64,000 nucleotides of DNA from Stenotrophomonas maltophilia (GTDB lineage: Bacteria > Pseudomonadota > Gammaproteobacteria > Xanthomonadales > Xanthomonadaceae): NCBI RefSeq assembly GCF_900186865.1, contig NZ_LT906480.1, forward strand, positions 1,196,001 through 1,260,000, given 5' to 3'. Shown piece after piece: positions 13,854 to 55,284 of the stretch. The first letter of the stretch is position 1. Each line of letters starts with the position of its first letter. Under the pieces are notes generated by a model. That model ran no database searches, was not told where the DNA came from, and saw only the letters and a list, made by a program, of their open reading frames with translations. The translations under genes were made by a program, and so were the position numbers.

Positions 13854-14726
13854 CTACCAGCGGATGCTGCCGTCGATCACGCACTGCACCTGGCCGCCGA
13901 TCCACACCGTGCCCTGCGCATCAACCTCGACCTGTACGCGACCATCGCGGCCGACTTCGCGGCCCTGGCTGGCGACGTAGCGGCCCTCGCGGCCGGGCAG
14001 GGCATTGCGCTGGCGCAGCCAGGCACCGATCAGCGCATTGGCGCTGCCTGTCACTGGATCCTCGGGCACGGCGGCTGCATCAGCCGGGCAGAAGGCGCGC
14101 ACCACCCGGGTGTGGTCGCCGCCGGCCTCGTCGGCGAACACGGCCACACCGGTCGCGTCGGTGGCGAGGCTCCAGTCGGCCAGCGTGGCCATGTCCGGCA
14201 CAAGGTTGCGTACGGCAGCGGCGTCGCGCAGCGGCAGCAGCCACCAGCGTGCGCCGTTGTCCCACAGTTCGGGCGCGTGCCCGCTGGCAGCCAGCGCCAG
14301 CAGCTCCTTCGGCGCGGCGTCCGCCATCGTGTCCAGTTGTCGTGCCGGTGGGCTGGCCAGCTGGATTTCCGGCGCCTCGGCCGGACCGCTGACCCGTACC
14401 GGCAGCAACCCCGCCTCGCATTGCTGCAGCAGGGCACCGTTGCGCGGTTGCGCCAGGCCGCAGGTCACCGCCGCCCAGGCGGCGCCGACGCTGGGGTGGC
14501 CGGCGAAGGCCAGCTCGCGGGTCGGGGTGAAGATGCGGATGTGGTAGTCGGCGCCCGGCGTGCTGGGGCGCAGGAAGAACACCGTCTCGGACAGGTTCAG
14601 CCAGGCGGCCAGGGCCTGCATCTGGCTGCTGGAGAGCCCGTCGGCGTCCAGGATGACGCCCAGCGGGTTGCCGGTGCCGGGGCGGGGGGCGAAGACATCG
14701 AGCTGCAGGTAACGGAGGACGGCCAT
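13854..14726 (-). CDS. PhzF family isomerase/epimerase (paralogue 2)
   Basis: A 290-residue PhzF-fold protein similar throughout to the neighbouring paralogue (shared LQLDVFAPRPGTGNPLGVIL start and GGQVQCVIDGSI end). The catalytic glutamate is in NLSETVFFLRP, and the second-domain glycine motif PEDPVTGSANALIG is closer to the family consensus than in paralogue 1. The substrate is unknown. It begins 75 bp from the divergent lysAC gene, so the two share a promoter region. The pair probably arose by tandem duplication, with the inverted repeat inserted between them afterwards. Confidence 0.86.
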   Translation of the reverse strand: MAVLRYLQLDVFAPRPGTGNPLGVILDADGLSSSQMQALAAWLNLSETVFFLRPSTPGADYHIRIFTPTRELAFAGHPSVGAAWAAVTCGLAQPRNGALLQQCEAGLLPVRVSGPAEAPEIQLASPPARQLDTMADAAPKELLALAASGHAPELWDNGARWWLLPLRDAAAVRNLVPDMATLADWSLATDATGVAVFADEAGGDHTRVVRAFCPADAAAVPEDPVTGSANALIGAWLRQRNALPGREGRYVASQGREVGRDGRVQVEVDAQGTVWIGGQVQCVIDGSIRW

Positions 14727-14801
14727 CTACGGGGATATTGCGCTTAGAATCAAAGGTTCCGCCCCCGAGGGCGGCTTCCCCACATTCTACATAGCCAATC
14801 C

Positions 14802-17396
14802 ATGTCAGCTTCCCCCCTTGTCGATCGTTGGATCGTACTGAAGTTCGGCGGCACCTCGGTGTCGCGTCGTCACCGCTGGGACACGATCGGGAAGCTGGCG
14901 AAAAAACGCGCGGAAGAGACCGGCTCGCGCGTGCTGGTGGTGGTGTCGGCGCTGTCCGGGGTCACCAACGAACTGACCGCGATCGCCGATGGCGCGCCCG
15001 ACAGCCGGGACCGCGTGGCGGCGCTGGTCGAACGCCACGAGGCCTTCCTGGTTGAACTCGGCCTGGGCCGCGAGGTGCTGGCCGATCGCCTGGCGGCGCT
15101 GCAGGGGCTGCTCGACGACGCGCGGGCGGCCACCCGTCCGCTCGACTGGCAGGCCGAAGTGCTGGGCCAGGGCGAGCTGCTGTCCTCCACCCTGGGTGCG
15201 GCCTACCTGCACGCTTCGGGCCTGGACATGGGCTGGATGGATGCCCGCCAGTGGCTGGACGCGATGCCGCCGCAGCCGAACCAGAGCGACTGGTCGCAGC
15301 GCCTGTCGGTGAACTGCCAGTGGCGTGCCGACGCGGAATGGATGCAGCGCTTCCGTGCGCAGCCGACCCGCCTGCTGATCACCCAGGGCTTCATCTCGCG
15401 GCATGCCGATGGCGGTACCGCCATCCTCGGCCGCGGCGGCTCGGATACCTCGGCGGCGTACTTCGGTGCGCTGCTCGGTGCCAGCCGCGTGGAGATCTGG
15501 ACCGATGTGCCGGGCATGTTCAGTGCCAACCCGAAGGATGTGCCGGACGCGCGCCTGCTGACCCGCCTGGACTATTACGAGGCGCAGGAAATCGCCACCA
15601 CCGGCGCCAAGGTGCTGCACCCGCGCTCGATCAAGCCGTGCCGCGATGCCGGCGTACCGATGGCCATCCTCGATACCGAGCGCCCGGAACTGCCGGGCAC
15701 CAGCATCGACGGCAGCGCTGCGCCGGTACCAGGGGTGAAGGCGATCAGCCGCCGCAACGGCATCGTGCTGGTGTCGATGGAAGGCATCGGCATGTGGCAG
15801 CAGGTCGGCTTCCTGGCCGATGTGTTCAATCTGTTCAAGAAGCACGGCCTGTCGGTGGACCTGATCGGTTCGGCCGAAACCAACGTCACCGTGTCGCTGG
15901 ACCCGTCTGAGAATCTGGTCAATACCGATGTGCTGGCCGCGCTGTCGGCCGACCTGTCGCAGATCTGCAAGGTGAAGGTGATCGTGCCGTGTGCGGCGAT
16001 CACCCTGGTGGGCCGTGGCATGCGTTCGCTGCTGCACAAGCTGTCGGACGTGTGGGCGACCTTCGGCCGCGAGCGCGTGCACATGATCTCGCAGTCGTCC
16101 AATGACCTGAACCTGACCTTCGTCATCGACGAGGCCGATGCCGATGGCCTGCTGCCGGTGCTGCACGCCGAGCTGATCGACAGCGGCGCGATGCCGGTGG
16201 AAGAGACCGAAGTATTCGGCCCGCGCTGGCGCGAGATCGCCGGCACCGTGCGCCCGCGTGGCACGCCGTGGTGGCGGGGCCAGCGTGCGCACCTGCTGCA
16301 GCTGGCCGATGCCGGTACGCCGCGCTACGTCTACCATCTGCCGACCGTGCGCGCCCGCGCCCGCGCGCTGGCCGCGATCAAGCCGATCGACCAGCGCTAC
16401 TACGCGATCAAGGCCAACAGCCACCCGGCCATCCTGCAGCTGCTGGAAGCCGAAGGCTTCGGCCTGGAGTGCGTGTCGCATGGCGAACTGAAGCACGTGT
16501 TCCAGCACCTGCCGGAACTGTCGCCCAAGCGCGTGCTGTTCACTCCCAGCTTCTGCCCGCGCAGCGAGTACGAAGCCGCATTCGCGTTGGGCGTGACCGT
16601 GACGGTCGACAACGTCGAGGCACTGCAGCGCTGGCCGGACCTGTTCCGCAACCGCGAGCTGTGGCTGCGCGTCGACCTGGGCCGTGGCGAAGGCCACCAC
16701 GCCAAGGTCCGTACCGGTGGCAAGGAGTCCAAGTTCGGCCTGCCGATCGCCCGTGTCGACGAGTTCGTGCGCGCGGCCACCGATCTGGGCAGCCGCGTGG
16801 TCGGCCTGCATGCGCACCTGGGCAGCGGCGTGGAGACCGCGCAGCACTGGCGCCTGATGTGCGATGAGCTGGCCGGTTTCGCCCGCCGCATCGGCAGCGT
16901 GCAGACCATCGACATCGGTGGCGGCCTGCCGATTCCGTATTCCGCCGAGGACGAGCCGTTCGATCTGGATGCCTGGGCCGAGGGCCTGGCGGAGGTCAAG
17001 GCGCTGCATCCGGCGTTCCGCCTGGCGATCGAGCCGGGCCGCTACCTGGTGGCCGAATCCGGCGTGCTGCTGACCCACGCCACGCAGGTGGTGGAAAAGG
17101 ACGGCGTGCGCCGCGTCGGCCTGGATGCCGGCATGAACGCACTGATGCGCCCGGCGCTGTACGACGCCTGGCACGACATCGAGAACCTAAGCCGCCAGGG
17201 TGGGTATGCCGAGGCGGCGTTCGATGTGGTCGGCCCGATCTGCGAATCCAGCGATGTGTTCGGCAAGCGCCGCAAGCTGCCGGTGTCGACCGCGCCGGAC
17301 GACGTGATGCTGATCGCCGATGCCGGCGCCTACGGCTATTCGATGGCCAACACCTACAACCAGCGGATGCTGCCGCGCGAAGACGTGATCGAATGA
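14802..17396 (+). CDS. lysAC: Bifunctional aspartate kinase / diaminopimelate decarboxylase
   Basis: An 864-residue fusion of the first and last enzymes of the diaminopimelate-lysine pathway. Residues 1 to about 300 are aspartate kinase (KFGGTSV at 14-20; GRGGSDTSA; ATTGAKVLHPR). Two ACT-like regulatory domains follow to about residue 460 (GIGMWQQVGFLADVF; VHMISQSSNDLNLTF). From about 490 to the end it is a PLP-dependent decarboxylase of fold type III: lysine K537 in YAIKANSHP, the phosphate-binding GGGLPIPY, and catalytic C814 in GPICESSD. Fusions of this kind are known in Xanthomonas and Xylella. It allows lysine feedback on a polypeptide that also makes lysine. The murL-murD2 pair follows after 70 bp. 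Confidence 0.96.
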   Translation: MSASPLVDRWIVLKFGGTSVSRRHRWDTIGKLAKKRAEETGSRVLVVVSALSGVTNELTAIADGAPDSRDRVAALVERHEAFLVELGLGREVLADRLAALQGLLDDARAATRPLDWQAEVLGQGELLSSTLGAAYLHASGLDMGWMDARQWLDAMPPQPNQSDWSQRLSVNCQWRADAEWMQRFRAQPTRLLITQGFISRHADGGTAILGRGGSDTSAAYFGALLGASRVEIWTDVPGMFSANPKDVPDARLLTRLDYYEAQEIATTGAKVLHPRSIKPCRDAGVPMAILDTERPELPGTSIDGSAAPVPGVKAISRRNGIVLVSMEGIGMWQQVGFLADVFNLFKKHGLSVDLIGSAETNVTVSLDPSENLVNTDVLAALSADLSQICKVKVIVPCAAITLVGRGMRSLLHKLSDVWATFGRERVHMISQSSNDLNLTFVIDEADADGLLPVLHAELIDSGAMPVEETEVFGPRWREIAGTVRPRGTPWWRGQRAHLLQLADAGTPRYVYHLPTVRARARALAAIKPIDQRYYAIKANSHPAILQLLEAEGFGLECVSHGELKHVFQHLPELSPKRVLFTPSFCPRSEYEAAFALGVTVTVDNVEALQRWPDLFRNRELWLRVDLGRGEGHHAKVRTGGKESKFGLPIARVDEFVRAATDLGSRVVGLHAHLGSGVETAQHWRLMCDELAGFARRIGSVQTIDIGGGLPIPYSAEDEPFDLDAWAEGLAEVKALHPAFRLAIEPGRYLVAESGVLLTHATQVVEKDGVRRVGLDAGMNALMRPALYDAWHDIENLSRQGGYAEAAFDVVGPICESSDVFGKRRKLPVSTAPDDVMLIADAGAYGYSMANTYNQRMLPREDVIE

Positions 17397-43459: not shown

Positions 43460-44491
43460 CTACCGGCGCAGCGACGATTCCCGCACCACCAGCTTCACCG
43501 GGATGCTCTGGCTCTCCACCGGCTGTCGGCCGATCAGCGCCAGCAGGCGTTCCACCAGCAGCTGGCCGGCCTGCTTGGTGTCCTGCTGCACCGTGGTCAG
43601 CGCCGGGGATACCGAGGCTGCCAGCGGGATGTCGTCGAAGCCGGTCACCGCTACGTCCTGTGGCACCCGCAGGCCGGCCTCACGCAGGGCCCGCATCGCG
43701 CCGATGGCGATCAGGTCGCTGGCGGCGCAGATCGCATCGATCGGTTCACCGCGTGCCAACAGTGCCTGGCAGGCCTCCTGGCCGGAAGCCTCGGTGGTGA
43801 TCGCATCGTGCTGCAGCGCCGGTTCGGCGGCCAGGCCGTGGTCCTGCAGGGCCGCGACATGGCCGCGGTAGCGTTCCTGGAATTCGGGGTAATGGCTGGA
43901 GGCATGGCCGAGAAAGGCGATGCGGCGGCAGCCCTGCTGCAGGAGGTGGGTGGTGATGTCATGCCCGCCCTGGAAGTTGTCGCTGCCGATCGAGACACCG
44001 GGTTGGCCGGGCAGGGCGGCGCCCCAGCGCACGAAGTGCGTGCCCTGTTCGACCAGCCGCTGCAGGCGGTCGCGCGATTCGTGGTAGTCGCCGTAGCCGA
44101 GCAGGATGATGCCGTCGGCTTTGTTGCTGTCCTCGTAATCGGCCTGCCAGTCGGTGGACAGCTGCTGGAACGAGACCAGCAGGTCCTGCCCGTGCAGGGC
44201 GCAGGCGCGGGTGATCGAGCCCAGCATCGAATGGAAGAACGGGTTGATCAGCGAATCGTCGTTGGTCGGGTCCTCGAAGAACAGCAGGGCCAGCGTGCCG
44301 GCATTGCGCAGGCGCAGGCTGGAGGCGTTCTTGTCGACCTTGTAGTTCAGCTCGCGGGCGATGCGCAGGATGCGCTCGCGGGTCTCGGCGTTGACCATCG
44401 GGCTGCCACGCAGGGCCCGCGACACGGTCGGCTGGGAGACCCCGGCCAGGTGGGCGATGTCCAGGGAGGTGGCTTTGCCTTTGATCGTCAT
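43460..44491 (-). CDS. LacI family transcriptional regulator (candidate alpha-glucan regulator)
   Basis: A 343-residue LacI-family repressor. The helix-turn-helix at residues 5-50 has SLDIAHLAGVSQPTVSRALRGS. The hinge-like segment KNASSLRLRNAGTLALLF and a periplasmic-binding-protein core follow (VAVTGFDDIPLAASVSPALTTV). The start at 44491 is fixed by the DNA-binding domain. It is about 14 kb from the nearest alpha-glucan gene and next to unrelated genes, so no target is certain. It is nevertheless one of only two LacI proteins in the window. The other one sits by its own operator, so this one is the better candidate for TGAATACGTATGCA, unless the true regulator lies elsewhere in the genome. 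Confidence 0.9.
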   Translation of the reverse strand: MTIKGKATSLDIAHLAGVSQPTVSRALRGSPMVNAETRERILRIARELNYKVDKNASSLRLRNAGTLALLFFEDPTNDDSLINPFFHSMLGSITRACALHGQDLLVSFQQLSTDWQADYEDSNKADGIILLGYGDYHESRDRLQRLVEQGTHFVRWGAALPGQPGVSIGSDNFQGGHDITTHLLQQGCRRIAFLGHASSHYPEFQERYRGHVAALQDHGLAAEPALQHDAITTEASGQEACQALLARGEPIDAICAASDLIAIGAMRALREAGLRVPQDVAVTGFDDIPLAASVSPALTTVQQDTKQAGQLLVERLLALIGRQPVESQSIPVKLVVRESSLRR

Positions 44492-44783
44492 GGGAACGCG
44501 GGAGGGGGCAGGGGGAGGAGCTTGGGCATGATGCCATGGGCAGACGCCAATGCCCCTCCGGATGTCCACCGAAGCGAGGGTAAGTCATTGCCGGACAAGG
44601 AAATCAGTTCAATCCTCCTGCGCGGCCGGGGTCTTCTGACCGGGCGGATGGCGGCGGCAATGCTAAGATGCATCGTTCTCGCATTCCCCCAAATTTCAAC
44701 AGGGGCGGCCTCGCCTACTGCACCCCCGCCCGGGGCTGTGCTATCACTGGCGGTCTGCCCCTGGACAACGGACGAAGGTACCT

Positions 44784-45365
44784 ATGGCGCGCGGCATCAA
44801 CAAAGTCATCCTGGTCGGCAATCTCGGCAACGACCCGGACGTGAAGTACACCCAGGGCGGCATGGCGATCACCCGCATCAGCCTGGCCACCACCAGCGTC
44901 CGCAAGGACAAGGATGGCAACCAGCAGGAGCGCACCGAGTGGCACCGCGTGGTGTTCTTCGGCAAGCTCGGCGAGATCGCCGGCGAGTACCTGCGCAAGG
45001 GCAGCTCGGTCTACGTCGAAGGCAGCCTGCGCTACGACAAGTACACCGGCCAGGACGGCGTGGAGAAGTACTCCACCGACATCATTGCCGATGAAATGCA
45101 GATGCTGGGCGGCCGCGGTGAAGGCGGTGGCGGCGGCGGTGGTGGCAACTACGGCGGCGATCGTCCGCAGCGCCAGCAGGCTCCGCGCCAGGAGTATGGC
45201 GGCGGTGGTGGCGGTGGCGGCCAGCGTGGTGGCCAGGGCGGTGGCTATGGCAACCAGGGCGGCAACCAGGGCGGCGGTTACGGCAACCAGGGTGGCAACC
45301 AGCGTCCGCAGCCGCAGCAGGCGCCGCCGATGGATGACTTCGCTGACGACGATATTCCGTTCTGA
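44784..45365 (+). CDS. ssb: Single-stranded DNA-binding protein
   Basis: A 193-residue SSB. The OB-fold is at residues 1 to about 110 ([54 protein letters not shown]). A glycine/glutamine-rich disordered linker at about 112-180 has repeats of GNQGG. The acidic tip [11 protein letters not shown] binds partner proteins of replication, repair and recombination. It forms tetramers on single-stranded DNA. The linker is internally repetitive at DNA level and probably length-variable between strains. A terminator follows. Roughly 290 bp upstream, shared with the divergent LacI gene, presumably holds both promoters. Confidence 0.97.
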
Positions 45366-45505: not shown

Positions 45506-45519
45506 TGCAATCGATTGCA
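45506..45519. promoter_or_regulatory. LacI-type operator of the 3-keto-glycoside system (left end)
   Basis: A perfect 14-bp palindrome, TGCAATCGATTGCA, lies about 50 bp before the first gene of the rightward operon. The identical sequence lies at 54198-54211 at the other end of the gene set, beside the LacI gene. Confidence 0.8.
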
Positions 45520-45567
45520 TTGCTGTGAATCGTTGCGTTTGATACCGGTTGGGAGGCCGGAAGGTGG

Positions 45568-46473
45568 ATGACCATCCATTCGATCAGACCGGCTCCTTCG
45601 AGGGGGCTCACGCGGCGCGATGCGCTGCGCATCGCAGTTGCCGGCAGCATTGGCCTGGGGGCCGCGACAACCGCGGGCGCATTGCCCGCATTCGCCGCCA
45701 CGGCGCCGCTCAAGGGCAACCTGAAGCATTCCGTCGCCCGCTGGACCTTCCCGCAGCTGTCCGTCGCCCAGCTTTGCGCGACGGTGAAGGACATCGGTTC
45801 TTCCGCGATCGACCTGGTCGGCCCGGAAGACTGGCCCACGCTGAAGGCCCATGGCGTCTACAGCTCGATGTGCAACGGCGCAGAGCTGGGCCTGACCAAG
45901 GGCTTTGCCGGCCGTGAGTTCCACGACCAATTGGTGGAGCGCTACACGCGGCACATCGATCTGGTGGCCGACGCTGGTTACCGCAATCTCATCTGCTTCT
46001 CCGGCAACCGCAACGGCATGGACCCGCAGGACGGCATGGCCAATGCCGAGGCAGGTCTCAAGCGCATCCTCGGGCATGCCGAGAAGCGCGGCGTGGTGCT
46101 GGTGATGGAGCTGCTGAACTCCAGGGTCGATCACCACGACTACCTGTGCGATCACTCCGCCTGGGGCGTGGAGCTGTGCCAGCGGCTCGGCTCGGACAAC
46201 TTCGGCCTGCTCTACGACATCTACCACATGCAGATCATGGAAGGCGACATCATCGCCACCATCGGCAAGCATCACGCCTGCTTCAAGCACTACCACACCG
46301 CAGGCGTGCCCGGCCGGAACGAGATCGGAGACCAGCAGGAGCTCCACTATCCGGCCATCTGTCGCGCGATCCGCGACACCGGCTTCAAGGGGTATCTGGC
46401 GCAGGAGTTCACGCCTGCAGCGCCCGATCCCGTTGCCTCATTGCGCGAGGCGATCCGCCTCTGCGACGTCTGA
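45568..46473 (+). CDS. Tat-exported TIM-barrel isomerase/epimerase-like protein
   Basis: A 301-residue protein with a twin-arginine signal (TRRDALRIAVAGSIGLG, cleavage near AFAA). A sugar-phosphate isomerase/epimerase (AP endonuclease 2) type TIM barrel follows, nearest to hydroxypyruvate isomerase-like proteins. Likely metal ligands are in VLVMELLNSR, NFGLLYDIYHMQI, FKHYHTAGVPGRNE and YLAQEFTP. Export in a folded state suggests a metal-bound enzyme acting in the periplasm. In related 3-keto-glycoside pathways, members of this fold act as lyases or epimerases on oxidised sugars; that role is inferred here. It is the first gene after the left operator, with 27 bp to the GMC gene. Confidence 0.85.
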   Translation: MTIHSIRPAPSRGLTRRDALRIAVAGSIGLGAATTAGALPAFAATAPLKGNLKHSVARWTFPQLSVAQLCATVKDIGSSAIDLVGPEDWPTLKAHGVYSSMCNGAELGLTKGFAGREFHDQLVERYTRHIDLVADAGYRNLICFSGNRNGMDPQDGMANAEAGLKRILGHAEKRGVVLVMELLNSRVDHHDYLCDHSAWGVELCQRLGSDNFGLLYDIYHMQIMEGDIIATIGKHHACFKHYHTAGVPGRNEIGDQQELHYPAICRAIRDTGFKGYLAQEFTPAAPDPVASLREAIRLCDV

Positions 46474-46500
46474 AACGATATCCACCCAGGTGAGAGACCC

Positions 46501-48186
46501 ATGGCAGATAATCACTACGACGCCATTGTTGTTGGCTCGGGAATCAGTGGCGGTTGGGCGGCGAAGGAGCTGACCGAAAAGGGCCTGAAGGTCCTGATGC
46601 TGGAACGCGGGCGCAACATCGAGCACGTCAAGGACTACGTCAACGCGATGAAGGAGGCGTGGGATTTCCCGCACCGCAACCGGCCAACGCAGGCAATGAA
46701 GGCCGAGTTCCCGGTGCTGATGCGCGACTACGGCCTGGCCGAGAACCTGGAAGGGATGTGGGCCAACGAACAGGAATCGCCCTACATCGAGACCAAGCGC
46801 TTCGACTGGTTCCGTGGCTACCACGTCGGTGGTCGTTCCTTGATGTGGGGCCGGCAGAGCTATCGCTTCTCCGATCTGGATTTCGAGGCGAACCTCAAGG
46901 ACGGCCTCGCGACCGACTGGCCGATCCGCTACGCCGACATCGCGCCGTGGTACGACCACGTGGAAAAGTTTGCCGGCATCGCCGGCACGCGCGAAGGACT
47001 GGACGTGCTGCCGGACGGCGAGTTCCTGCCGCCGATTCCCTTGAACATCGTCGAGAAGGATGTGGCCGCGCGTATCAAGAAGGCCTTCGGCGGAACGCGC
47101 CATATGATCCACTCGCGCACTGCCAACATCACCCAGCCGATGCCCGAGCAGGGGCGCGTCAATTGCCAGTACCGCAACAAGTGCATCCTGGGCTGTCCCT
47201 TCGGTGCCTACTTCTCGACCCAGGCGGCGACGCTGCCGGCGGCGATGAAGACCGGGAACCTGACCTTGCGGCCGTTCTCGATCGTCAAGGAAGTGCTCTA
47301 CGACAAGGATCGCAAGCGTGCGCGTGGCGTGGAGGTGATCGACGCCGAGACCGGGCAGACCTACCAGTACACGGCCAAGGTCATTTTCCTCAACGCGTCG
47401 TCGTTCAACTCGACGTGGCTGCTGATGAATTCGGCCACCGACGTCTGGGACGGCGGGCTGGGCTCTTCGTCCGGCGAGTTGGGGCACAACGTGATGGACC
47501 ATCATTTCGGTGCGGGTGCCTCGGGCCGGGTCGAGGGTTACGAAGACAAGTACTACTTCGGCCGCCGTCCCTGCGGCTTCTACATTCCGCGGTTCCGCAA
47601 CGTCGCGGCCGACAAGCGCGGCTACCTGCGCGGGTTCGGCTACCAGGGCGGTGCCAGCCGCACCGGATGGTCGCGCGAGATCGCCGAGCTCAACATCGGT
47701 GCCGATCTGAAGGAGGCACTGACCGTGCCGGGTGACTGGCGCATCGGCATGACCGGGTTCGGTGAAATGCTGCCGCACCACGACAACACGATCCGCCTGG
47801 ACCACGACCGCAAGGACAAATGGGGACTGCCGGTGCTGGCGATGGACGTGTCCATGCGCGCCAATGAACTGGCGATGCGCAAGGACATGGCCGCCGATGC
47901 CGCCGAGATGCTGGAGGCGGCCGGGGTCAAGGAGGTGAAGATGCACGACAACGACTATGCCCCGGGCAAGGGCATCCACGAGATGGGGACCGCACGCATG
48001 GGACGTGATCGGAAAAGCTCGGTATTGAATGCGCACAACCAGGTCTGGGATGCCCCCAATGTCTATGTGACCGATGGTGCCTGCATGACCTCCAGCGCCT
48101 GCGTGAATCCCTCGCTGACCTATATGGCGCTGACCGCGCGCGCGGCCGACCATGCGGTACGCGAACTGAAAGCGGGGAACCTCTGA
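46501..48186 (+). CDS. GMC-family dehydrogenase large subunit (glucoside 3-dehydrogenase type)
   Basis: A 561-residue FAD oxidoreductase. The dinucleotide fold is at IVVGSGISGG (about 9-18). The GMC catalytic pair is probably H493 (GIHEMGTARMG) and N536 (SACVNPSLTY). Three cysteines C222, C228 and C232 have the spacing of the iron-sulfur ligands in bacterial FAD-glucose dehydrogenase catalytic subunits. It lacks its own signal peptide and is followed at a one-base overlap by a Tat-signal small subunit, so it is probably exported as a complex. Glucoside 3-dehydrogenases of this architecture oxidise C3 of glucose units, and such activity is known from Stenotrophomonas. The exact substrate is inferred. 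Confidence 0.9.
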   Translation: MADNHYDAIVVGSGISGGWAAKELTEKGLKVLMLERGRNIEHVKDYVNAMKEAWDFPHRNRPTQAMKAEFPVLMRDYGLAENLEGMWANEQESPYIETKRFDWFRGYHVGGRSLMWGRQSYRFSDLDFEANLKDGLATDWPIRYADIAPWYDHVEKFAGIAGTREGLDVLPDGEFLPPIPLNIVEKDVAARIKKAFGGTRHMIHSRTANITQPMPEQGRVNCQYRNKCILGCPFGAYFSTQAATLPAAMKTGNLTLRPFSIVKEVLYDKDRKRARGVEVIDAETGQTYQYTAKVIFLNASSFNSTWLLMNSATDVWDGGLGSSSGELGHNVMDHHFGAGASGRVEGYEDKYYFGRRPCGFYIPRFRNVAADKRGYLRGFGYQGGASRTGWSREIAELNIGADLKEALTVPGDWRIGMTGFGEMLPHHDNTIRLDHDRKDKWGLPVLAMDVSMRANELAMRKDMAADAAEMLEAAGVKEVKMHDNDYAPGKGIHEMGTARMGRDRKSSVLNAHNQVWDAPNVYVTDGACMTSSACVNPSLTYMALTARAADHAVRELKAGNL

Positions 48187-48761
48187 TGGATCGCCGCGAA
48201 CTGTTGAAGATGATCGTTGCCGCTACCGGTGCGGCCATGGTTGGCCTGCCTGCGCTGGTGCATGGCAAGGTGCCGGCTGCCGGGGCGATGCCCGCGTTCT
48301 CCGATGCCGACATCGGCATGCTGGACGAGATCGCCGAAACCATCCTGCCGCGGACAAGGACGCCCGGGGCCAAGGACGCGGGTGCCGGTGCGTTCATGGC
48401 GACGTTCGTCAGCGACTGTTACACCGCCCGGCAGCAGGCGACGTTCCGCGCCGGCCTGGCCGACATCGACACGCGCGCCGGTGGCCGTTTCGTATCGCTC
48501 ACGCCGGAAGCCCGCACCGGGTTGCTGCGAACGCTGGACGCCGAAGCCAAGGCACGCAATGCCGACGTGACCGAGACCGGCACTCCCGAGGAAGGCGAGG
48601 CCATGCCGCATTACTTCACGATGATCAAGCAGCTGGCCATCTTCGGCTTCTTCACTTCAAAGGTCGGGGCGACCGGTGTGCTGCAGTACGTCGCCGTGCC
48701 GGGCCGCTACGACGGTGACCTGGCCTATGTCCCCGGTACGCCCGCGTGGGGGACCAGCTGA
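48186..48761 (+). CDS. Gluconate 2-dehydrogenase subunit 3-like small subunit with Tat signal
   Basis: A 191-residue protein with an N-terminal twin-arginine-like signal (MDRRELLKMIVAATGAAMVG). A body of the gluconate 2-dehydrogenase subunit 3 family follows (DADIGMLDEIAETILPRTRT near 40-59; MPHYFTMIKQLAIFGFFTS; VPGRYDGDLAYVPG near the end). It would escort the GMC subunit through Tat and hold it in the periplasm. Its start overlaps the GMC stop by one base and its stop overlaps the DUF1080 gene by one base, so expression is tightly coupled. In FAD-glucose dehydrogenases the equivalent subunit is needed for maturation of the large subunit. Confidence 0.9.
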   Translation: MDRRELLKMIVAATGAAMVGLPALVHGKVPAAGAMPAFSDADIGMLDEIAETILPRTRTPGAKDAGAGAFMATFVSDCYTARQQATFRAGLADIDTRAGGRFVSLTPEARTGLLRTLDAEAKARNADVTETGTPEEGEAMPHYFTMIKQLAIFGFFTSKVGATGVLQYVAVPGRYDGDLAYVPGTPAWGTS

Positions 48762-49519
48762 TGGACACCATCCTGATGATCCGCCCTGCGTTGATCACGG
48801 CCGGCCTGCTGGCCGCTGCATCTGCATTCGCTCAGGACGGTACCGACGCTGCGCGTGACCCGAAGAAGACCGAAGTGTGGACGCCCGTGCCCGCAGTCGT
48901 GGCCACGCCGCCAGGCAAGGCCCCCTCCGATGCCATCGTGCTGTTCGATGGCAAGGATGTCTCGGCGTGGGAGGCAGAGCAGGGCGGGCGCGTGTCCTGG
49001 ACGGTTGCCGATGGCGCCATGACCGTCGTTCCGGGCAGCAAGGGCATCCGCACCCGGCAACGCTTCTGCGATGTCCAGCTGCATGTCGAATGGCGTACCC
49101 CCACCGAGACGAAGGGCTTCGACGGCCAGAACCGGGGCAACAGCGGCATCTTCCTGCAGGAACTGTACGAGCTGCAGGTGCTCGACAGTTACAACAACCC
49201 GACGTATGCCAACGGCCAGGCGGGTTCGATCTACAAGCAGGCCATGCCACGGGTGAACGCCTCGCGCGCACCGGGCCAGTGGCAGGTCTACGACATCATC
49301 TGGAAGGCACCGCGCTTCTCGCAGGGCGGCGGCCTGACGTCGCCCGCGCGCATCACCGTGCTGCACAACGGCGTACTCGTGCAGGACGACACCGTGCTGG
49401 CAGGCAGGACCGAGTACATCGGTGCGCCTTCGTACGCACCCCATGCGTGCGCGCCGCTCTATCTGCAGGAGCATGACTCCAGGGTCAGCTACCGCAACAT
49501 CTGGGTGCGCGAACTGTAG
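48761..49519 (+). CDS. DUF1080 / 3-keto-disaccharide hydrolase domain protein, secreted
   Basis: A 252-residue protein with a signal peptide (MDTILMIRPALITAGLLAAA...AQ) and a single DUF1080 domain (concanavalin-like fold): AIVLFDGKDVSAWEAEQGG, KGFDGQNRGNSGIFLQELYE, and a terminal APLYLQEHDSRVSYRNIWVR. Members of this family hydrolyse glycosidic bonds of 3-keto-disaccharides, the products of glucoside 3-dehydrogenase. Its direct coupling to the dehydrogenase genes fits that role well. The start ATG at 48761 overlaps the small-subunit stop; the frame is open for five codons further upstream. It is the last gene of the rightward operon. Confidence 0.9.
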   Translation: MDTILMIRPALITAGLLAAASAFAQDGTDAARDPKKTEVWTPVPAVVATPPGKAPSDAIVLFDGKDVSAWEAEQGGRVSWTVADGAMTVVPGSKGIRTRQRFCDVQLHVEWRTPTETKGFDGQNRGNSGIFLQELYELQVLDSYNNPTYANGQAGSIYKQAMPRVNASRAPGQWQVYDIIWKAPRFSQGGGLTSPARITVLHNGVLVQDDTVLAGRTEYIGAPSYAPHACAPLYLQEHDSRVSYRNIWVREL

Positions 49520-49525
49520 CGGCAC

Positions 49526-49549
49526 GCGGCCGGCGTGGTCGCCGGCCGC
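49526..49549. terminator. Hairpin between the two convergent operons
   Basis: A perfect 10-bp stem, GCGGCCGGCG/CGCCGGCCGC, with a four-base loop occupies nearly the whole 30-bp gap between the DUF1080 and cytochrome genes. There is no T-tract, so it is at best a pausing or 3'-protecting structure for both messages. Confidence 0.5.
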
Positions 49550-49846
49550 CTACTTCGCCAGATAGCTGGCGAGGTCGTCGATCTCCTGCTGCGACAGCTG
49601 GGCAAAGGGCGGCATCAATCCTCCGCCCTTCCTGATCTTGTCCTTGACCTGGGCGGGCTGAAGCCGCTTGCCGACGTCGGTGAGCGCCGGGAAGGTAGGC
49701 GGTACGCCGGCGCGTTCAGCACCGTGGCAGGCAGTGCAGTGCTGGGCATAGAGTTTCGCGCCGGCGGCAGGATCGTCCTTGGCCCGGGCTGCCGTTGAAG
49801 TGCTCATGCCGCCCAGGGCCAGGGCCAGGGCCAGGATCATCTTCAT
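49550..49846 (-). CDS. Small periplasmic cytochrome c (class I)
   Basis: A 98-residue monohaem cytochrome c with a signal peptide (MKMILALALALGGMSTSTAARA). The haem-binding motif is CTACH at about residues 37-41, and an axial methionine is in GGGLMPPFAQLSQQE near residue 78. It probably accepts electrons from the GMC dehydrogenase and passes them to the respiratory chain. It is the last gene of the leftward operon, 18 bp after the TIM-barrel gene, and converges with the dehydrogenase operon. Confidence 0.92.
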   Translation of the reverse strand: MKMILALALALGGMSTSTAARAKDDPAAGAKLYAQHCTACHGAERAGVPPTFPALTDVGKRLQPAQVKDKIRKGGGLMPPFAQLSQQEIDDLASYLAK

Positions 49847-49864
49847 GTGGGGCTCCTTGATGCG

Positions 49865-50728
49865 TCAGCGCCGTGCACGGGTGGGCACGTTGGCGGGCAG
49901 GTGTTCACGCAGGTAGTCCGCGCCGGTCTGGATGACCTTGGCCGGGTCGCGTGGCTGGTCGTGCTCGACGATGTACCACTGCACCTTGGCCGCCGCAGCG
50001 GCGGGCAGGATCGCGTTCCAGTCCAGCACGCCCTGGCCCACGGCGGCGAATCCGTCTTCGTCCTGGGCCTGGCCCTTGGGCGCATTGTCCTTGGCGTGCA
50101 CCGCGAACACGCGACCGCGGAATTTTCCCAGCATCACCGCCGGGTCCAGGCCCGCACGTGCGACCCAGGCCAGGTCCAGCTCGGTCTGCAGGTCGGGGCC
50201 GGCCGCTGCGAACAGCAGCTCCAGCCCGGTCTGGCCGTCGAAGTCGGCCAGCTCGAAGTCGTGGTTGTGATAGGCCAGGCGCATGCCCTTGCCGCGCACC
50301 TGCTTGGCGATGCGGCCCAGCTCCTTGCCCAATGCGGTCCAACCCGCGGCATCGGTTGGGCGGTCCTTCTGGTCCAGGTAAGGCACCACCAGCGTGCTGT
50401 TGCCGATCGACCGGTTGAACGTCACCACACCATCCAGGTTGCCCCGCAGCTCGGCCAGTGGCACGTGCGACGAAACCGCCTTGATCGAATACCGGTCCAG
50501 CAGCTGCTTGAGTTCGGTGGCGCTGGTGTTCTGCGTACCGACCGTTTCCACCGCACGGACGCCCGCGTCGTGGACGATCTTCAACTGCTGATCGAGCGAG
50601 CCTGCATTGCGCAGGGTGTACATCTGCACCGCGATCGGCTTCTGCGTGGTGGCGGCTTCGCTCGCGAAGGCGGGCAGGGCAGCGAGCAGCAGGATGAGAC
50701 TTGCACTTCTACGGAAAAGAGCTTTCAT
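49865..50728 (-). CDS. Sec-exported TIM-barrel isomerase/epimerase-like protein
   Basis: A 287-residue protein with a cleavable signal (MKALFRRSASLILLLAALPAFA) and an AP endonuclease 2-type TIM barrel. Likely metal-site segments are MRLAYHNHDFELA, LQTELDLAWVARAG, VFAVHAKDN and WYIVEHDQ. It resembles the DgpC-like/3-keto-glucoside lyase group in general form, but the catalytic step is not proven by sequence. The start at ATG 50728 follows GGAGGATC. It lies between the Gfo/Idh gene and cytochrome c in one operon. Together with the Tat-exported barrel this gives two periplasmic members of the fold. Confidence 0.87.
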   Translation of the reverse strand: MKALFRRSASLILLLAALPAFASEAATTQKPIAVQMYTLRNAGSLDQQLKIVHDAGVRAVETVGTQNTSATELKQLLDRYSIKAVSSHVPLAELRGNLDGVVTFNRSIGNSTLVVPYLDQKDRPTDAAGWTALGKELGRIAKQVRGKGMRLAYHNHDFELADFDGQTGLELLFAAAGPDLQTELDLAWVARAGLDPAVMLGKFRGRVFAVHAKDNAPKGQAQDEDGFAAVGQGVLDWNAILPAAAAAKVQWYIVEHDQPRDPAKVIQTGADYLREHLPANVPTRARR

Positions 50729-50747
50729 CAACAGATCCTCCCGGAAT

Positions 50748-51872
50748 TCAACCGATGGTGGTCCAGGCACGTGACCTGGCTGATGCAATGACGCGATCGA
50801 CGATCCGTGCCGAGCGCAGGCCGTCTTCGAAGGTGGGCAGGCCCTGCGGCCGCTCGCCCTCAATGGCGCGATAGGTGTCGGCCACAAACGCCTCGAAACA
50901 CTGGGCGTAGCCCTGTGCATGCCCGGCCGGCAGCACGGAAAGGCGGCGTTGTTCGGCGCTGCCGGCACCGGGGCCGCGCATGAAGGTTTCCTCGCGCTGA
51001 TCGGGCAGGCCGATCCAGAGTCGTTCGGCATCCTCCTGGTTGAAGACCACGCTGGCCTTGGCGCCATCGATCTCGAACCAGAGGCGGTTGTGGCGTCCGG
51101 CCGAGACCTGGCTGACCGTCAATGACGCCAGCGTGCCGGCGCCGGTCCTGAACATCGCTGCGGCCACGTCTTCGCTGGTGACAGCCTGCATCGCGCTGGC
51201 GGCCGTTGGCGTGCTGAAGCTCTGCCCGCTGACGGCGCCACGCTGGGCGATCACCGTGGCGAACGCCGCGCTGACCTCGGCGAAGCGTTCGCCGCTGATC
51301 CATTCGACCAGGTCGCACCAGTGCGAACCGATGTCGGCGAACACGCGCGACGTGCCTCCCAGCGCGGGGTCCACGCGCCAGTTGTTGCTGGCCGGATCCA
51401 GCAGCCAGTCCTGCAGGTAGCTGCCGTGGATCAGGTGCAACGGCCCCAGATCGCCCTGGGCGATGCGTGCGCGCGCCTCGCGGACCACCGGGTGGTAGCG
51501 GTAGACGAAGGGCACCGTGGCAACCAATCCGGTCGATGCGGCCAGTGTCGCCAGCGCCCGCGCATCGTCCAGCGTCGTCGCCAGCGGCTTCTCGCAGATC
51601 ACGTGCTTGCCGGCTTCCAGCGCGGCCTGTGCCATGGCGCGGTGCAGATGGTTGGGCGTGCACACGTGCACGACCTGCACCTGAGGATCGGCGATCACCT
51701 CCTCGATAACCCGATAGGCGCGTGGGACATTCCAGGACTGCGCGGCCTCATGCGCGCGCTGCGGTGACGAGGCGGCGACGCCGCGTACCTCGGCGCCCGC
51801 CAGCAGTGCAGCGCGACGATGCACGGCACCGATCATGCCAGCGCCGACGATGGCGATTCCAAGCTTGGGCAT
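50748..51872 (-). CDS. Gfo/Idh/MocA family oxidoreductase
   Basis: A 374-residue NAD(P)-dependent cytoplasmic oxidoreductase. The Rossmann motif is GIAIVGAGMIGAVH (about 5-18). The catalytic lysine is in HVICEKPLATT near residue 95. The substrate-domain histidine segment is IGSHWCDLVEWISG. Family members reduce or oxidise sugar carbonyls; in 3-keto-glucoside pathways they turn 3-ketoglucose into glucose or the reverse. No signal peptide is present, so it would handle the product after import. It lies in the middle of the leftward operon, 12 bp after the MFS gene. Confidence 0.92.
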   Translation of the reverse strand: MPKLGIAIVGAGMIGAVHRRAALLAGAEVRGVAASSPQRAHEAAQSWNVPRAYRVIEEVIADPQVQVVHVCTPNHLHRAMAQAALEAGKHVICEKPLATTLDDARALATLAASTGLVATVPFVYRYHPVVREARARIAQGDLGPLHLIHGSYLQDWLLDPASNNWRVDPALGGTSRVFADIGSHWCDLVEWISGERFAEVSAAFATVIAQRGAVSGQSFSTPTAASAMQAVTSEDVAAAMFRTGAGTLASLTVSQVSAGRHNRLWFEIDGAKASVVFNQEDAERLWIGLPDQREETFMRGPGAGSAEQRRLSVLPAGHAQGYAQCFEAFVADTYRAIEGERPQGLPTFEDGLRSARIVDRVIASARSRAWTTIG

Positions 51873-51883
51873 CGGGCGGGTCC

Positions 51884-53101
51884 TCAGGGCGTGGAAGGCG
51901 TGGCCACGACCGCCGGCCGGTCGCGGAACAGCAGCAGGAAGGCGATCAGCACCACCAGTGCAACGCCGGCCGGGAACAGCCAGATCTGCTGCCAGTCGGG
52001 GCCGGCCTCGGTGGTGAAGTGCTCCACCACCGCACCGGACAGGAAGGTGCCGATCAGCATTCCCACGCCGTAGGTAGCCAGGGTGATGAAGCCCTGCGCG
52101 CTGCTGCGCGCGGCGGGGCCGGCATGCGCATCGGTGTAGATCTGGCCGGTGACGAAGAAGAAGTCGTAGCAGATGCCGTGCAGCACGATGCCGATCACCA
52201 GCAGCGAGAAGCCGCTGCCCGCATCGCCGAAGGCGAACATGGCGTAGCGCACCACCCAGGCGGCCATGCCGACCGCCAGCATGGTCTTCACTCCCAGCCG
52301 CACGAACAGGAACGGCATGGCCAGCATCAGCAGCACTTCGGAGACCTGGCCCAGCGACTGCAGGCCTGCTGCACCCCGCACGCCCAGGTCGTTGAGATAC
52401 GGATTGGTGAAGTTGTAGTAGAACGACAGCGGGATGCAGATGGCGATGGACGCCAGGAAAAACACCAGATAGGCACGCGATTTCAGCAGACGCAACGAAT
52501 CCAGCCCCAGGATCTGCCCCAGCCCGGCATCGCGCTGCTGTGCCAGTGGCGGCGTGTGCGGCAGGGTGAATGCATACAGGCCCAGCACCAGCGATGCCAG
52601 CGCGGCCATGCGGAAGGTGAGTTCAAGCCGATGGGCCTGTTCCCAGCCCAGCCAGCCGATCAGCACACCGGCGACGATCCAGCCGATGCTACCGGCCACG
52701 CGTACCAGCGGGAACTGTTTCTCGGGCGACTGCATGTGCCGCATCGCCACGCTGTTGGCCAGTGCCAACGTCGGCATGAACAGCAGCATGTAGCCCATCA
52801 CGCAGGCCGAGAACACGCTGAAGCTGGTGGCGGTGGACGCCAGCCACATCAGCACCGCGCCGGCCAGGTGCAGCACCGCGAGGATGCGCTGCGCCGCGAA
52901 GTAGCGGTCGGCGATCAGGCCGACCAGGAACGGCGCAACGATCGCGCCGATGGACTGGCTGAGGAAGGCGGTGGCCACCTGGCTGGCGCTGGCCTGCAGC
53001 GGGCCCTGCACCAGGTAGGTTCCGAGGGTGACGAACCACGCCCCCCAGATGAAGAACTGCAGAAACATCATCGCGCCCAGGCGCGACATGGCGTGCGTCA
53101 T
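51884..53101 (-). CDS. MFS transporter of the nucleoside/proton symporter (NupG-like) family
   Basis: A 405-residue permease with 12 predicted helices, beginning MSRLGAMMFLQFFIWGAWFV, the family-typical opening. It carries SIGAIVAPFLVGLIADRYF and a central hydrophilic loop (TLPHTPPLAQQRDAGLG). Despite the nucleoside name, members near Gfo/Idh and TIM-barrel genes are probably carbohydrate importers. Here it is the only importer in the gene set, so it likely carries the keto-sugar or free monosaccharide from the periplasm. The start is ATG 53101; a second methionine at codon 5 is possible. It lies 27 bp downstream of the cytoplasmic TIM-barrel gene. Confidence 0.88.
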   Translation of the reverse strand: MTHAMSRLGAMMFLQFFIWGAWFVTLGTYLVQGPLQASASQVATAFLSQSIGAIVAPFLVGLIADRYFAAQRILAVLHLAGAVLMWLASTATSFSVFSACVMGYMLLFMPTLALANSVAMRHMQSPEKQFPLVRVAGSIGWIVAGVLIGWLGWEQAHRLELTFRMAALASLVLGLYAFTLPHTPPLAQQRDAGLGQILGLDSLRLLKSRAYLVFFLASIAICIPLSFYYNFTNPYLNDLGVRGAAGLQSLGQVSEVLLMLAMPFLFVRLGVKTMLAVGMAAWVVRYAMFAFGDAGSGFSLLVIGIVLHGICYDFFFVTGQIYTDAHAGPAARSSAQGFITLATYGVGMLIGTFLSGAVVEHFTTEAGPDWQQIWLFPAGVALVVLIAFLLLFRDRPAVVATPSTP

Positions 53102-53128
53102 GGCTTGCCCTCCCGGGGCGGTCTTGGC

Positions 53129-54181
53129 TCAGATTCCCAGCATGCGGTGCAGTGATGCGGCGTCCGTGCCACTGTCGGCAAAGTCGTCGAAGGCGCGGTC
53201 GGTCACGCGGATGATGTGGTCGCGGATGAAGGCGGCACCCTCGCGTGCGCCGTCCTCGGGGTGCTTCAGGCAGCATTCCCATTCCAGTACCGCCCAGCCG
53301 GGGAAGTCGTACTGGGCGAACTTCGAGAAGATCGCCTTGAAGTCGATCTGGCCATCACCGAGCGAACGGAAGCGGCCCGGACGCTCGATCCAGTCCTGGT
53401 AGCCGCCATACACGCCGCTGCTTGCGCTGGGGCGATACTCCGCGTCCTTGACGTGGAAGATGCCGATGCGCGCGTGGTAGCGGTCGATGAAACCCAGGTA
53501 GTCCATCTGCTGCAGCAGCAGGTGGCTGGGGTCGTACAGGATCTTGGCGCGGGGGTGATGATCCACCACATCGAGGAAGCGTTCGAAGGTCGCGCCATCG
53601 TGCAGGTCCTCGCCCGGGTGGATCTCGAAGCAGAGATCCACGCCGCAGGCATCGAAGGCATCGAGGATCGGGCGCCAGCGGCGGCCGAGTTCGGCGAAGG
53701 CTTCTTCCACCAGTCCCGGTGGGCGCTGCGGCCAGGGATAGAAATAGGGCCAGGCCAATGCGCCGGAGAACGTGGCATGCGCGGTCAGCCCCAGCCGCTG
53801 GCTGGCTTTGGCGGCCAACAGAAGCTGCTCCACCGCCCAGGCCTGGCGGGCCGTGGGATCGCCACGTTTGTCCGCGGGTGCGAATCCGTCGAACAGGCTG
53901 TCGTAGGCCGGATGGACCGCGACCAGCTGCCCCTGCAGATGGGTGGACAGCTCGGTGATCTGCACGCCATGACCTGCCAGCATGCCGGCGAGGTCGTCGC
54001 AGTACGCCTGGCTGCGCGCGGCCTCGGCCAGATCGAACAGGTGGGGCGCCGTGGTGGGGACTTGTACGCCAGAATAGCCCAGACCCGCGGCCCATCCGGC
54101 CAGCGTGTCCAGCCGATCAAAAGGAGCCGTGTCGCCGATGAACTGCGCCAGGAACAGCGCTGGACCCTTGAGCGTCTTCAA
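53129..54181 (-). CDS. Cytoplasmic TIM-barrel sugar isomerase/epimerase-like protein
   Basis: A 350-residue xylose-isomerase-like TIM barrel without signal peptide. Probable metal ligands lie in GVDLCFEIHPGEDLHDG, AKILYDPSHLLLQ, RIGIFHVKDAEYR and WAVLEWECC. It would act on the imported sugar. No in-frame ATG lies before LAGMLAGHGV, which is too far inside the barrel. A TTG at 54181 (LKTLKGPALF) with GAGGG upstream is chosen; another TTG at 54202 is possible but lies inside the operator. It is the first gene of the leftward operon and is divergent from the LacI gene. Confidence 0.85.
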   Translation of the reverse strand: MKTLKGPALFLAQFIGDTAPFDRLDTLAGWAAGLGYSGVQVPTTAPHLFDLAEAARSQAYCDDLAGMLAGHGVQITELSTHLQGQLVAVHPAYDSLFDGFAPADKRGDPTARQAWAVEQLLLAAKASQRLGLTAHATFSGALAWPYFYPWPQRPPGLVEEAFAELGRRWRPILDAFDACGVDLCFEIHPGEDLHDGATFERFLDVVDHHPRAKILYDPSHLLLQQMDYLGFIDRYHARIGIFHVKDAEYRPSASSGVYGGYQDWIERPGRFRSLGDGQIDFKAIFSKFAQYDFPGWAVLEWECCLKHPEDGAREGAAFIRDHIIRVTDRAFDDFADSGTDAASLHRMLGI

Positions 54182-54197
54182 CGTGATTCGCCCTCGA

Positions 54198-54211
54198 TGC
54201 AATCGATTGCA
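54198..54211. promoter_or_regulatory. LacI-type operator of the 3-keto-glycoside system (right end)
   Basis: A perfect TGCAATCGATTGCA palindrome (a 16-bp palindrome counting the flanking A/T) lies 17 bp upstream of the TTG start of the leftward operon and 65 bp from the divergent LacI gene. It is identical to 45506-45519. Confidence 0.82.
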
Positions 54212-54242
54212 TTATCCTAGCAGGGGCTTACGCAAGACCTGT

Positions 54243-54255
54243 TGTGCAGTGCACA
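54243..54255. promoter_or_regulatory. Second palindrome upstream of the LacI gene
   Basis: A TGTGC-AGT-GCACA inverted repeat lies 21 bp before the LacI start. It has no copy elsewhere that I found and could be an autoregulatory or effector-protein site. Confidence 0.3.
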
Positions 54256-54276
54256 GCGGGCGGGAGAACTAACGCC

Positions 54277-55284
54277 ATGGCCACCATCTACGACATCGCA
54301 AAGCACGTCGGCGTCTCCGCCGGCACCGTGTCGCGTGCACTTTCGCGGCCGGACAAAGTACTGCCGGCCACGCGCACGCGCATCGAGCAGGCCGCCGCGG
54401 CGTTGGGCTACGTGCCCAACACGGTTGCCCGCACGCTCAAGACCCAGCGCAGCGGCAAGATCCTGGTCACGGTGCCGGATATCGCCAACCCGTTCTTCGC
54501 GCAGATCCTGCAAGGGGCGGAAGACGCCGCGCAGGCTGTCGGCTATGCGGTGCTGCTGGGCGATACGCAGGACCAACCCGACCGCGAGGAACGCTACGCG
54601 CAGATGCTCCGGCGCAACGAGGCCGACGGCATGATCGTGCTTGGCCATCGCCTGCCACCGACGGCGCGCGAGATTGTCCAGCAGAGGGGGGCTGCCGCGC
54701 CGGTGGTCAACGGCTGCGAGTTCGATCCCGCGCTGGGCCTGCCCAGTGTGCACATCGACAATGCCGCCGCCGCACGCGCCGTCATGGAGCACTTGTACGC
54801 ACTGGGCCATGAACGGATCGCCGTGGTCGGTGGGCCGCCGGACAATCCCCTGCACCAGCAGCGCCTGGAAGGGGTACGGGGGGCCGGCAAGGTGCGTGGC
54901 CGCCTGCGCCAGCTGAGCATCGTGCCGGGGGATTTTTCAGTGGAATCCGGCCATGCGGCTGCCATGGCGCTGCTGGACGGCACGTCCGCACCAACGGCGA
55001 TCTTCTGCTTCAGCGACCAGATGGCGCTGGGCACCCTGGCGGCCTGCCGGGAGCTGGGCATCCGCGTGCCGGAAGACCTGTCCATCGTCGGCTTTGATGA
55101 TCTGGCGTCTTCCCGCTACCTCACGCCGCCGCTGACGACCATCCGGCAGCCGATGCGGGAAATCGGCGCGCGCGCGGTCAACCTGCTGCTCGCCATCATC
55201 GAACAGGTGGATGTTCCGCTTCAACAGACGCTGGATTTCAGCCTGATGGTGCGGGGATCGACGGCTGCGCCCCGACGCAGGTGA
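54277..55284 (+). CDS. LacI family repressor of the 3-keto-glycoside system
   Basis: A 335-residue LacI-family regulator. The DNA-binding domain is at the start (TIYDIAKHVGVSAGTVSRAL), with hinge VARTLKTQRSGKILVTVPDI. A sugar-binding core follows, with the conserved segments IAVVGGPPDNPLHQQRLEGV and LSIVGFDDLASSRYLTPPLT. It is divergent from the leftward operon, and the two identical palindromes at the outer ends of the gene set are its most probable operators. The ATG at 54277 is fixed by the helix-turn-helix. The inducer is probably a glucoside or keto-sugar from the pathway; this is inferred. Confidence 0.92.
   Translation: MATIYDIAKHVGVSAGTVSRALSRPDKVLPATRTRIEQAAAALGYVPNTVARTLKTQRSGKILVTVPDIANPFFAQILQGAEDAAQAVGYAVLLGDTQDQPDREERYAQMLRRNEADGMIVLGHRLPPTAREIVQQRGAAAPVVNGCEFDPALGLPSVHIDNAAAARAVMEHLYALGHERIAVVGGPPDNPLHQQRLEGVRGAGKVRGRLRQLSIVPGDFSVESGHAAAMALLDGTSAPTAIFCFSDQMALGTLAACRELGIRVPEDLSIVGFDDLASSRYLTPPLTTIRQPMREIGARAVNLLLAIIEQVDVPLQQTLDFSLMVRGSTAAPRRR

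Follow-up and report, generated by a model that had tools for sequence, protein, structure and literature searches.

How a gammaproteobacterium might dismantle glycosides by first oxidising the sugar, and how the genes for such a route are controlled, is the question raised by a cluster at positions 45506 to 55284 of a 64,000-nucleotide stretch of Stenotrophomonas maltophilia DNA. This stretch, the window to which coordinates refer unless stated otherwise, covers positions 1,196,001-1,260,000 of the single-contig, 5,004,261-bp genome. In the cluster, four rightward and five leftward genes converge tail to tail across a 30-bp gap, with a LacI-family gene at the edge. An earlier note on this DNA had described the nine enzyme and transport genes, their strands and their tail-to-tail arrangement, and all of them were found in place. 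Judging from the sequences, that is from protein families, close homology, the catalytic residues of a predicted eliminase, signal-like N-termini and operator conservation, we read the cluster as a LacI-controlled glycoside catabolic module, probably acting on plant glycosides or disaccharides, that oxidises its substrate and then eliminates or hydrolyses it, and give this reading a probability of roughly 0.85.

The chemistry is suggested first of all by two of the three TIM-barrel proteins. The one with a predicted Sec signal (49865..50728, minus strand) aligned with the Agrobacterium enzyme AtOGE (PDB 8bvk) over 250 residues at 326.8 bits, and is a putative 3-keto-O-glycoside beta-eliminase (OGE). 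The active-site residues His132, His134, Asp163, His189 and Glu233 of AtOGE, which comprise the metal ligands and the catalytic histidine (PMC10628242), are all matched in this alignment. The earlier note had suggested a comparison with DgpC/CarC-like lyases; the predicted eliminase belongs instead to the AtOGE type, for which specificity towards O-glycosides is described (PMC10628242), and no subunit pair of a C-glycoside lyase (DgpB/C, CarB/C) was present among the ten proteins scanned by Pfam. The cytoplasmic TIM barrel (53129..54181, minus strand) matched PDB 8ro4 across its full length at 602 bits, and is predicted to be a 2-hydroxy-3-keto-glucal hydratase (HYD), the function being the name given to 8ro4 by its depositors. 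In Agrobacterium, oxidation at C3 by GlycDH is followed by elimination by AtOGE, hydration by AtHYD (a preliminary assignment) and reduction by a Gfo-type enzyme (Bitter et al., 2023; PMC10628242). Because the Sec-type barrel matches AtOGE and the cytoplasmic barrel the hydratase, the biochemistry of the cluster would be already known, as this published oxidation-elimination-hydration-reduction pathway plus the DUF1080 branch of the LacABC system (PMC9007349).

The remaining genes are consistent with such a pathway. A GMC flavoprotein (46501..48186, plus strand; PF00732/PF05199), the predicted catalytic subunit of a glycoside 3-dehydrogenase of the GlycDH/LacA type, is followed by a small subunit of the Gluconate_2-dh3 family (48186..48761, plus strand; PF13618, 108 bits), single-copy in the genome and with a twin-arginine (RR, Tat-like) N-terminus, MDRRELLKMIVAATG; the GMC flavoprotein and Tat small subunit on which the GlycDH/OGE/HYD/Gfo pathway depends are thus both present. 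A glucoside 3-dehydrogenase has reportedly been purified from S. maltophilia. The likely electron acceptor of the dehydrogenase is a small c-type cytochrome with a signal-like N-terminus (49550..49846, minus strand; PF13442). Downstream of the small subunit lies a protein of the DUF1080, or 3-keto-disaccharide hydrolase, family (48761..49519, plus strand; PF06439, 146 bits), which also has a signal-like N-terminus, matches PDB 4qhz at 248 bits and is single-copy in the genome. The leftward operon further encodes a Gfo/Idh/MocA oxidoreductase (50748..51872, minus strand; PF01408), presumably a 3-keto-sugar reductase, whose best solved relative is 4h3v (176.9 bits), and a putative MFS importer of the NupG-like Nuc_H_symport family (51884..53101, minus strand; PF03825, 381 bits, above the cut-off). 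The rightward operon opens with the third TIM barrel (45568..46473, plus strand), which has a twin-arginine N-terminus and resembles hydroxypyruvate isomerases and ketose 3-epimerases. The earlier note's sequence of C3 oxidation, beta-elimination or hydrolysis, import and cytoplasmic reduction is in agreement with these assignments, each role matching a characterised or genetically supported relative.

Conservation was assessed on the best 80 by score of at least 593 confirmed relatives, and every locus count therefore concerns close relatives. Of these loci, 33 (L005-L037) are from Xanthomonadaceae of the genera Stenotrophomonas, Xanthomonas, Lysobacter, Pseudoxanthomonas and Luteimonas; the other 47 include some cut by contig ends, and loci from the same genus are not independent samples. 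All 33 Xanthomonadaceae loci carry the Tat TIM barrel, GMC, small subunit, DUF1080, OGE, Gfo, MFS, HYD and LacI genes, and 29 the cytochrome. The earlier note had considered it unusual that the three TIM barrels fall into three export classes, a view that does not hold for these Xanthomonadaceae loci, all of which have the three genes. Among the 47 other loci, we found the small subunit in 47, the Tat TIM barrel in 34, DUF1080 in 35, OGE in 40 (24 at ≥50% identity), Gfo in 36, MFS in 24, and HYD and LacI in 37 each. The GMC protein shares 97-99% identity with its counterparts in the Stenotrophomonas geniculata, pavanii and maltophilia loci and 75-77% with those in eight Agrobacterium/Rhizobium loci. 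In seven of these eight, LacI, HYD, Gfo, OGE and the small subunit are present as well, which corresponds to the enzymes of the published operon (PMC10628242). A GMC match at E ≤ 1e-100 was obtained in 33 of 198 genomes drawn from the family, our own included, and the module is therefore patchy in the family. A search of plasmids returned 637 records with a GMC relative, and in seven the identity was ≥60%. One entry of the plasmid collection, a 508,653-base record from Xanthomonas sacchari, has the GMC gene at 94.7% identity (NZ_CP010410.1:224010-225692). Insertions between the convergent operons were also seen: a Melibiase/GH31-like protein in Pseudoxanthomonas (L031:13088-15586), and, in two loci from Luteimonas (L036 and L037, about 13900-16300), a second pair of GMC and DUF1080 genes at 25-35% identity.

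Common control of the two operons is suggested by a perfect 14-bp palindrome, TGCAATCGATTGCA, which occurs exactly upstream of the rightward operon (operator 1, 45506..45519) and between the HYD and LacI genes (operator 2, 54198..54211). The identical palindromes reported in the earlier note at both outer ends are indeed exact, and are the only two such copies in the whole genome. With up to two mismatches, 15 forward matches were obtained genome-wide against 2 for a reversed control pattern, the inexact sites comprising none with one mismatch and 13 with two. Within the window, up to three mismatches gave 4 matches where 2.7 were expected; because 30 of 100 shuffles reach 4, what is unusual is the exact match and not the number of loose ones. 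Conservation at both outer ends is the strongest test that the palindromes are real: 33/33 Xanthomonadaceae loci are flanked by the palindrome or by a form of it in which T takes the place of G in one or both half-sites, and operator 1 sits in a conserved upstream block (window and 8 of the 33 loci aligned).

The operator and the recognition helix of the LacI protein (54277..55284, plus strand; PF00356/PF13377) vary together. In 28 loci both sites read TGCAATCGATTGCA and the helix is VSAGTVSR, as in the window, and in five (L019, L022, L026, L027 and L028) each site has one or both half-sites with T in place of G at position 2, and the helix is VTAGTVSR. In relatives from Halomonas, Alteromonas, Agrobacterium and Paracoccus the helix is mostly VSVATVSR or VSIATVSR. 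Of the 47 other loci, 33 have sites within one mismatch of TGTAANNNNTTACA close to cluster genes (71 of the 102 sites); with two control patterns this was so in 5 loci (5 of 28 sites) and in 2 loci (2 of 11 sites), respectively. Palindromes with a central CG at the operon starts, an adjoining LacI gene and co-variation of helix and operator, as in a LacI-controlled operon, are thus all found together, and we predict with good confidence that the gene at 54277..55284 encodes the cognate regulator, presumably a repressor. It would repress both operons, and probably its own gene, through the two identical operators until its effector, a sugar of the pathway, binds.

Signal-like N-termini bear on where each step would take place. 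They were scored on in-frame residues upstream of a core motif, starts not being proven, with an author-chosen hydrophobicity threshold of 1.6 over 12 residues. Among the 57 OGE relatives of at least 50% identity, 53 could be scored and 52 of these have a hydrophobic N-terminal stretch, as against 3 of 64 HYD and 0 of 25 Gfo proteins; of 16 OGE-like proteins below 50% identity, only three were located for scoring. The Agrobacterium OGE sequences inspected also have a hydrophobic, signal-like N-terminus. Two counts were not used: the DUF1080 core pattern matched 3 of 68 proteins and that of the Tat TIM barrel 32 of 66 (22 past the hydrophobicity threshold, 28 with RR). The two alphaproteobacterial loci that were annotated, L049 (Agrobacterium) and L044 (Paracoccus), each have a PF02653 permease in the cluster and neither has an MFS match; we take PF02653 to be the family of ribose-type (RbsC-type) ABC importer permeases. 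Because OGE N-termini are signal-like in 52 of 53 cases and an ABC permease replaces the MFS protein in two alphaproteobacterial loci, the bond would be cut in the periplasm and the free keto-sugar would cross the membrane. The word 'periplasm' occurs nowhere in the main text of the Agrobacterium paper (PMC10628242).

The pathway that we propose would run as follows. In the periplasm, the GMC protein, exported with its Tat small subunit, would oxidise a glycosidic glucose (or galactose) at its C3 hydroxyl, and the cytochrome c would drain the electrons. Cleavage could then take two routes, by the Mn-dependent OGE, releasing 2-hydroxy-3-keto-glucal and the aglycone, or by the DUF1080 protein. 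The NupG-like MFS protein would import the small keto-sugar, HYD would hydrate it to 3-keto-glucose, and the Gfo/Idh protein would reduce this to glucose. The compartment of each step, the species transported, the role of the Tat TIM barrel and the direction of regulation are the parts that we infer. In its most novel form, the proposal combines cleavage wholly outside the inner membrane and import of 2-hydroxy-3-keto-glucal or 3-keto-glucose (by the NupG-like MFS protein here and a ribose-type ABC system in Alphaproteobacteria) with a Tat TIM barrel that epimerises 3-keto-glycosides in the periplasm and so supplies a glucose-specific eliminase with galactosides and other sugars. We consider this combination less likely than not; if true, these would be, to our knowledge, the first transporter and the first exported epimerase for this pathway.

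Several observations weigh against the module as we read it. Among proteins of solved structure, the GMC protein comes closest to glucose and fructose dehydrogenases (about 115 bits), so its C3 specificity is deduced from the Agrobacterium relatives. The Gfo protein shares just 27-34% identity with the Gfo matches in loci outside Xanthomonadaceae, and the last step may therefore differ. In only one of the 47 other loci was a cytochrome of the window type detected. In Alteromonas-type loci OGE is a weak match (31-37%) or absent, and most of them keep GMC and DUF1080. As for regulation, the five loci with the VTAG helix are all from Xanthomonas, so that the co-variation may be a single event, and no TGTAANNNNTTACA site was seen in any of the seven LacI-bearing Agrobacterium/Rhizobium loci, whose operator therefore differs or escaped detection.

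Among the alternatives, the one that survives best concerns the Tat TIM barrel. By sequence and by fold, this protein is best matched by hydroxypyruvate-isomerase-like proteins, ketose 3-epimerases and YcjR; such a fold would suit an epimerase or isomerase of keto-sugars, a shared TIM-barrel fold being no proof of function, and the protein probably acts in this way on 3-keto-glycosides or 3-keto-sugars, thereby admitting more sugar types. It could instead be a second, different eliminase or hydratase acting on other linkages or on alpha-glycosides, an idea that we take seriously while doubting it. In 33/33 Xanthomonadaceae loci and in 33 of the 47 others (66 of 80 in all), the gene is no more than 200 bp upstream of GMC, and among the 34 non-Xanthomonadaceae loci that have it, 31 contain DUF1080 too, even where a close OGE is lacking, which would suit an additional cleaving enzyme. 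Fold matches of the protein also include the C-glycoside lyase chains 7dre and 8un2, although no such lyase stands at the top of a list whose absences exclude nothing. Arguing for an epimerase or isomerase, on the other hand, are the best matches named above, and no BLASTP similarity was detected between the Tat TIM barrel and OGE.

A second alternative is that the cluster is a LacABC-type pathway for lactose or other disaccharides, in which the periplasmic DUF1080 protein would be the main cleaver, OGE a side activity, and glucose and a 3-keto-sugar the imported products. In Caulobacter crescentus, a DUF1080 protein and LacABC are linked to lactose use with support from fitness data, which cover raffinose and salicin as well as lactose; upstream of lacB are further genes that matter on lactose, for a transporter, two epimerases and a reductase (Price et al., 2022; PMC9007349). 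Halomonas titanicae BH1, one of three genomes named there as having a similar LacA and DUF1080 cluster, is our locus L041, which carries OGE, the Tat TIM barrel, GMC, the small subunit, DUF1080, MFS, HYD, Gfo and LacI, the same components as the window save for the window-type cytochrome, which was not detected in it. Moreover, in 20 of the 47 other loci, DUF1080 and GMC occur together with no OGE that reaches 50% identity. Set against this, the window OGE has its full active site, OGE and HYD are both kept in 33/33 Xanthomonadaceae loci, and a keto-glucal hydratase would have no evident use under purely hydrolytic cleavage; we consider a pathway of this kind rather unlikely. That the module serves an anhydrosugar, an inositol or a nucleoside and not glycosides is far less probable still: the Gfo protein does score best with the levoglucosan dehydrogenase model (195 bits), the MFS protein matches the TIGR00889 nucleoside permeases (367 bits) and exceeds the Pfam cut-off for nucleoside H+ symporters, and both non-Tat TIM barrels match the IolE model, but the NCBIfam scores for Gfo, MFS and IolE all fall under the curated cut-offs (650 bits for Gfo, 446 for MFS), OGE and HYD are close homologues of glucoside-pathway enzymes, and the MFS protein is replaced by a PF02653 permease in both annotated alphaproteobacterial loci.

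Around the cluster, the HYD frame is open to 54202 and GAGGG precedes TTG 54181; the most likely starts, as far as the sequence indicates, are this TTG for HYD and ATG 54277 for LacI (frame open from GTG 54244), which would place operator 2 between two divergent genes. Hexamers resembling a -10 element, TATGGT and GATAAT, were read by eye beside the operators, and nothing is built on them; scans for sigma-70 promoters and terminators gave no match at the gap or at either operator. In the gap, a hairpin with a 10-bp stem (49526..49549), identified by RNA folding and having no U tract, is a possible two-way terminator. The region 49505-49570 folds at -39.5 kcal/mol (z -3.3, 1 of 200 shuffles as good), and the terminator scan, which requires a T run, found no match in the gap. 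Between operator 1 and the start of the Tat TIM barrel gene, a block, GGTNGGGAGGCCGG (45547-45560), is kept in 9/9 aligned sequences; it takes in the likely ribosome-binding site yet exceeds one in length. In Xanthomonas melonis, an extra partial operator copy stands right before the operator of the rightward operon (L026:8974-9006).

The single LacI gene of the earlier note is present at the edge, on the plus strand, but a second LacI-family gene (43463-44494, minus strand) lies beyond ssb (44784-45365). As a co-regulator it was set aside, since it adjoins ssb in some Stenotrophomonas loci and is near the cluster in no Xanthomonas locus; it is probably unrelated to the cluster. Of the 13 genomic sites with two mismatches to the operator, 10 fall inside open frames listed for 3 kb around each and three outside (L087, L091 and L098); the listed frames extend to the earliest start, and some of the 10 may truly be upstream. 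A search of this regulon for an outer-membrane uptake gene, with Pfam run on the frames of L097 alone, gave GH31 and SIS-domain proteins. The site between these two genes, TGTAATCGCTTGCA (G000:C1:4707186-4707199), two mismatches off the operator, may belong to another LacI regulon.

The oxidation-elimination pathway has been described as widespread among plant-associated bacteria (PMC10628242), and Stenotrophomonas, some Xanthomonas, Pseudoxanthomonas, Lysobacter and Luteimonas would be likely users of it. The main text of a study of 2014 mentions neither 'Xanthomonad' nor 'Stenotrophomonas' (Ravcheev et al., 2014; PMC4052901). The Bacillus smithii levoglucosan pathway likewise proceeds by oxidation, elimination, hydration and reduction (PMC7676230; PMC10628242), but it opens with levoglucosan dehydrogenase where the window has GMC, and the window Gfo lies under the cut-off for that dehydrogenase. 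Escherichia coli YcjR, of the YcjQRS guloside pathway (NC_000913.3), is 25% identical to the Tat TIM barrel over 131 residues and is not annotated as exported. With Caulobacter lacABC and DUF1080, the window shares a dehydrogenase of GMC, small subunit and cytochrome, an exported DUF1080 protein, a transporter, two sugar-epimerase-like proteins and a sugar reductase; these components are present by family, the Caulobacter proteins being known from their description (PMC9007349). With the Agrobacterium tumefaciens pathway it has in common GMC and its Tat small subunit, OGE, HYD and, by family, Gfo/Idh, and to these it adds DUF1080, the Tat TIM barrel and the cytochrome c (PMC10628242). It has an MFS protein, where the one annotated Agrobacterium locus (L049) has an ABC permease, as well as a diverged Gfo and two convergent operons. 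Gathering enzymes, transporter, two operators and regulator in a single 10-kb unit, the cluster offers candidates for the gaps of the published pathway: an importer, a repressor with its operator, and an exported TIM barrel.

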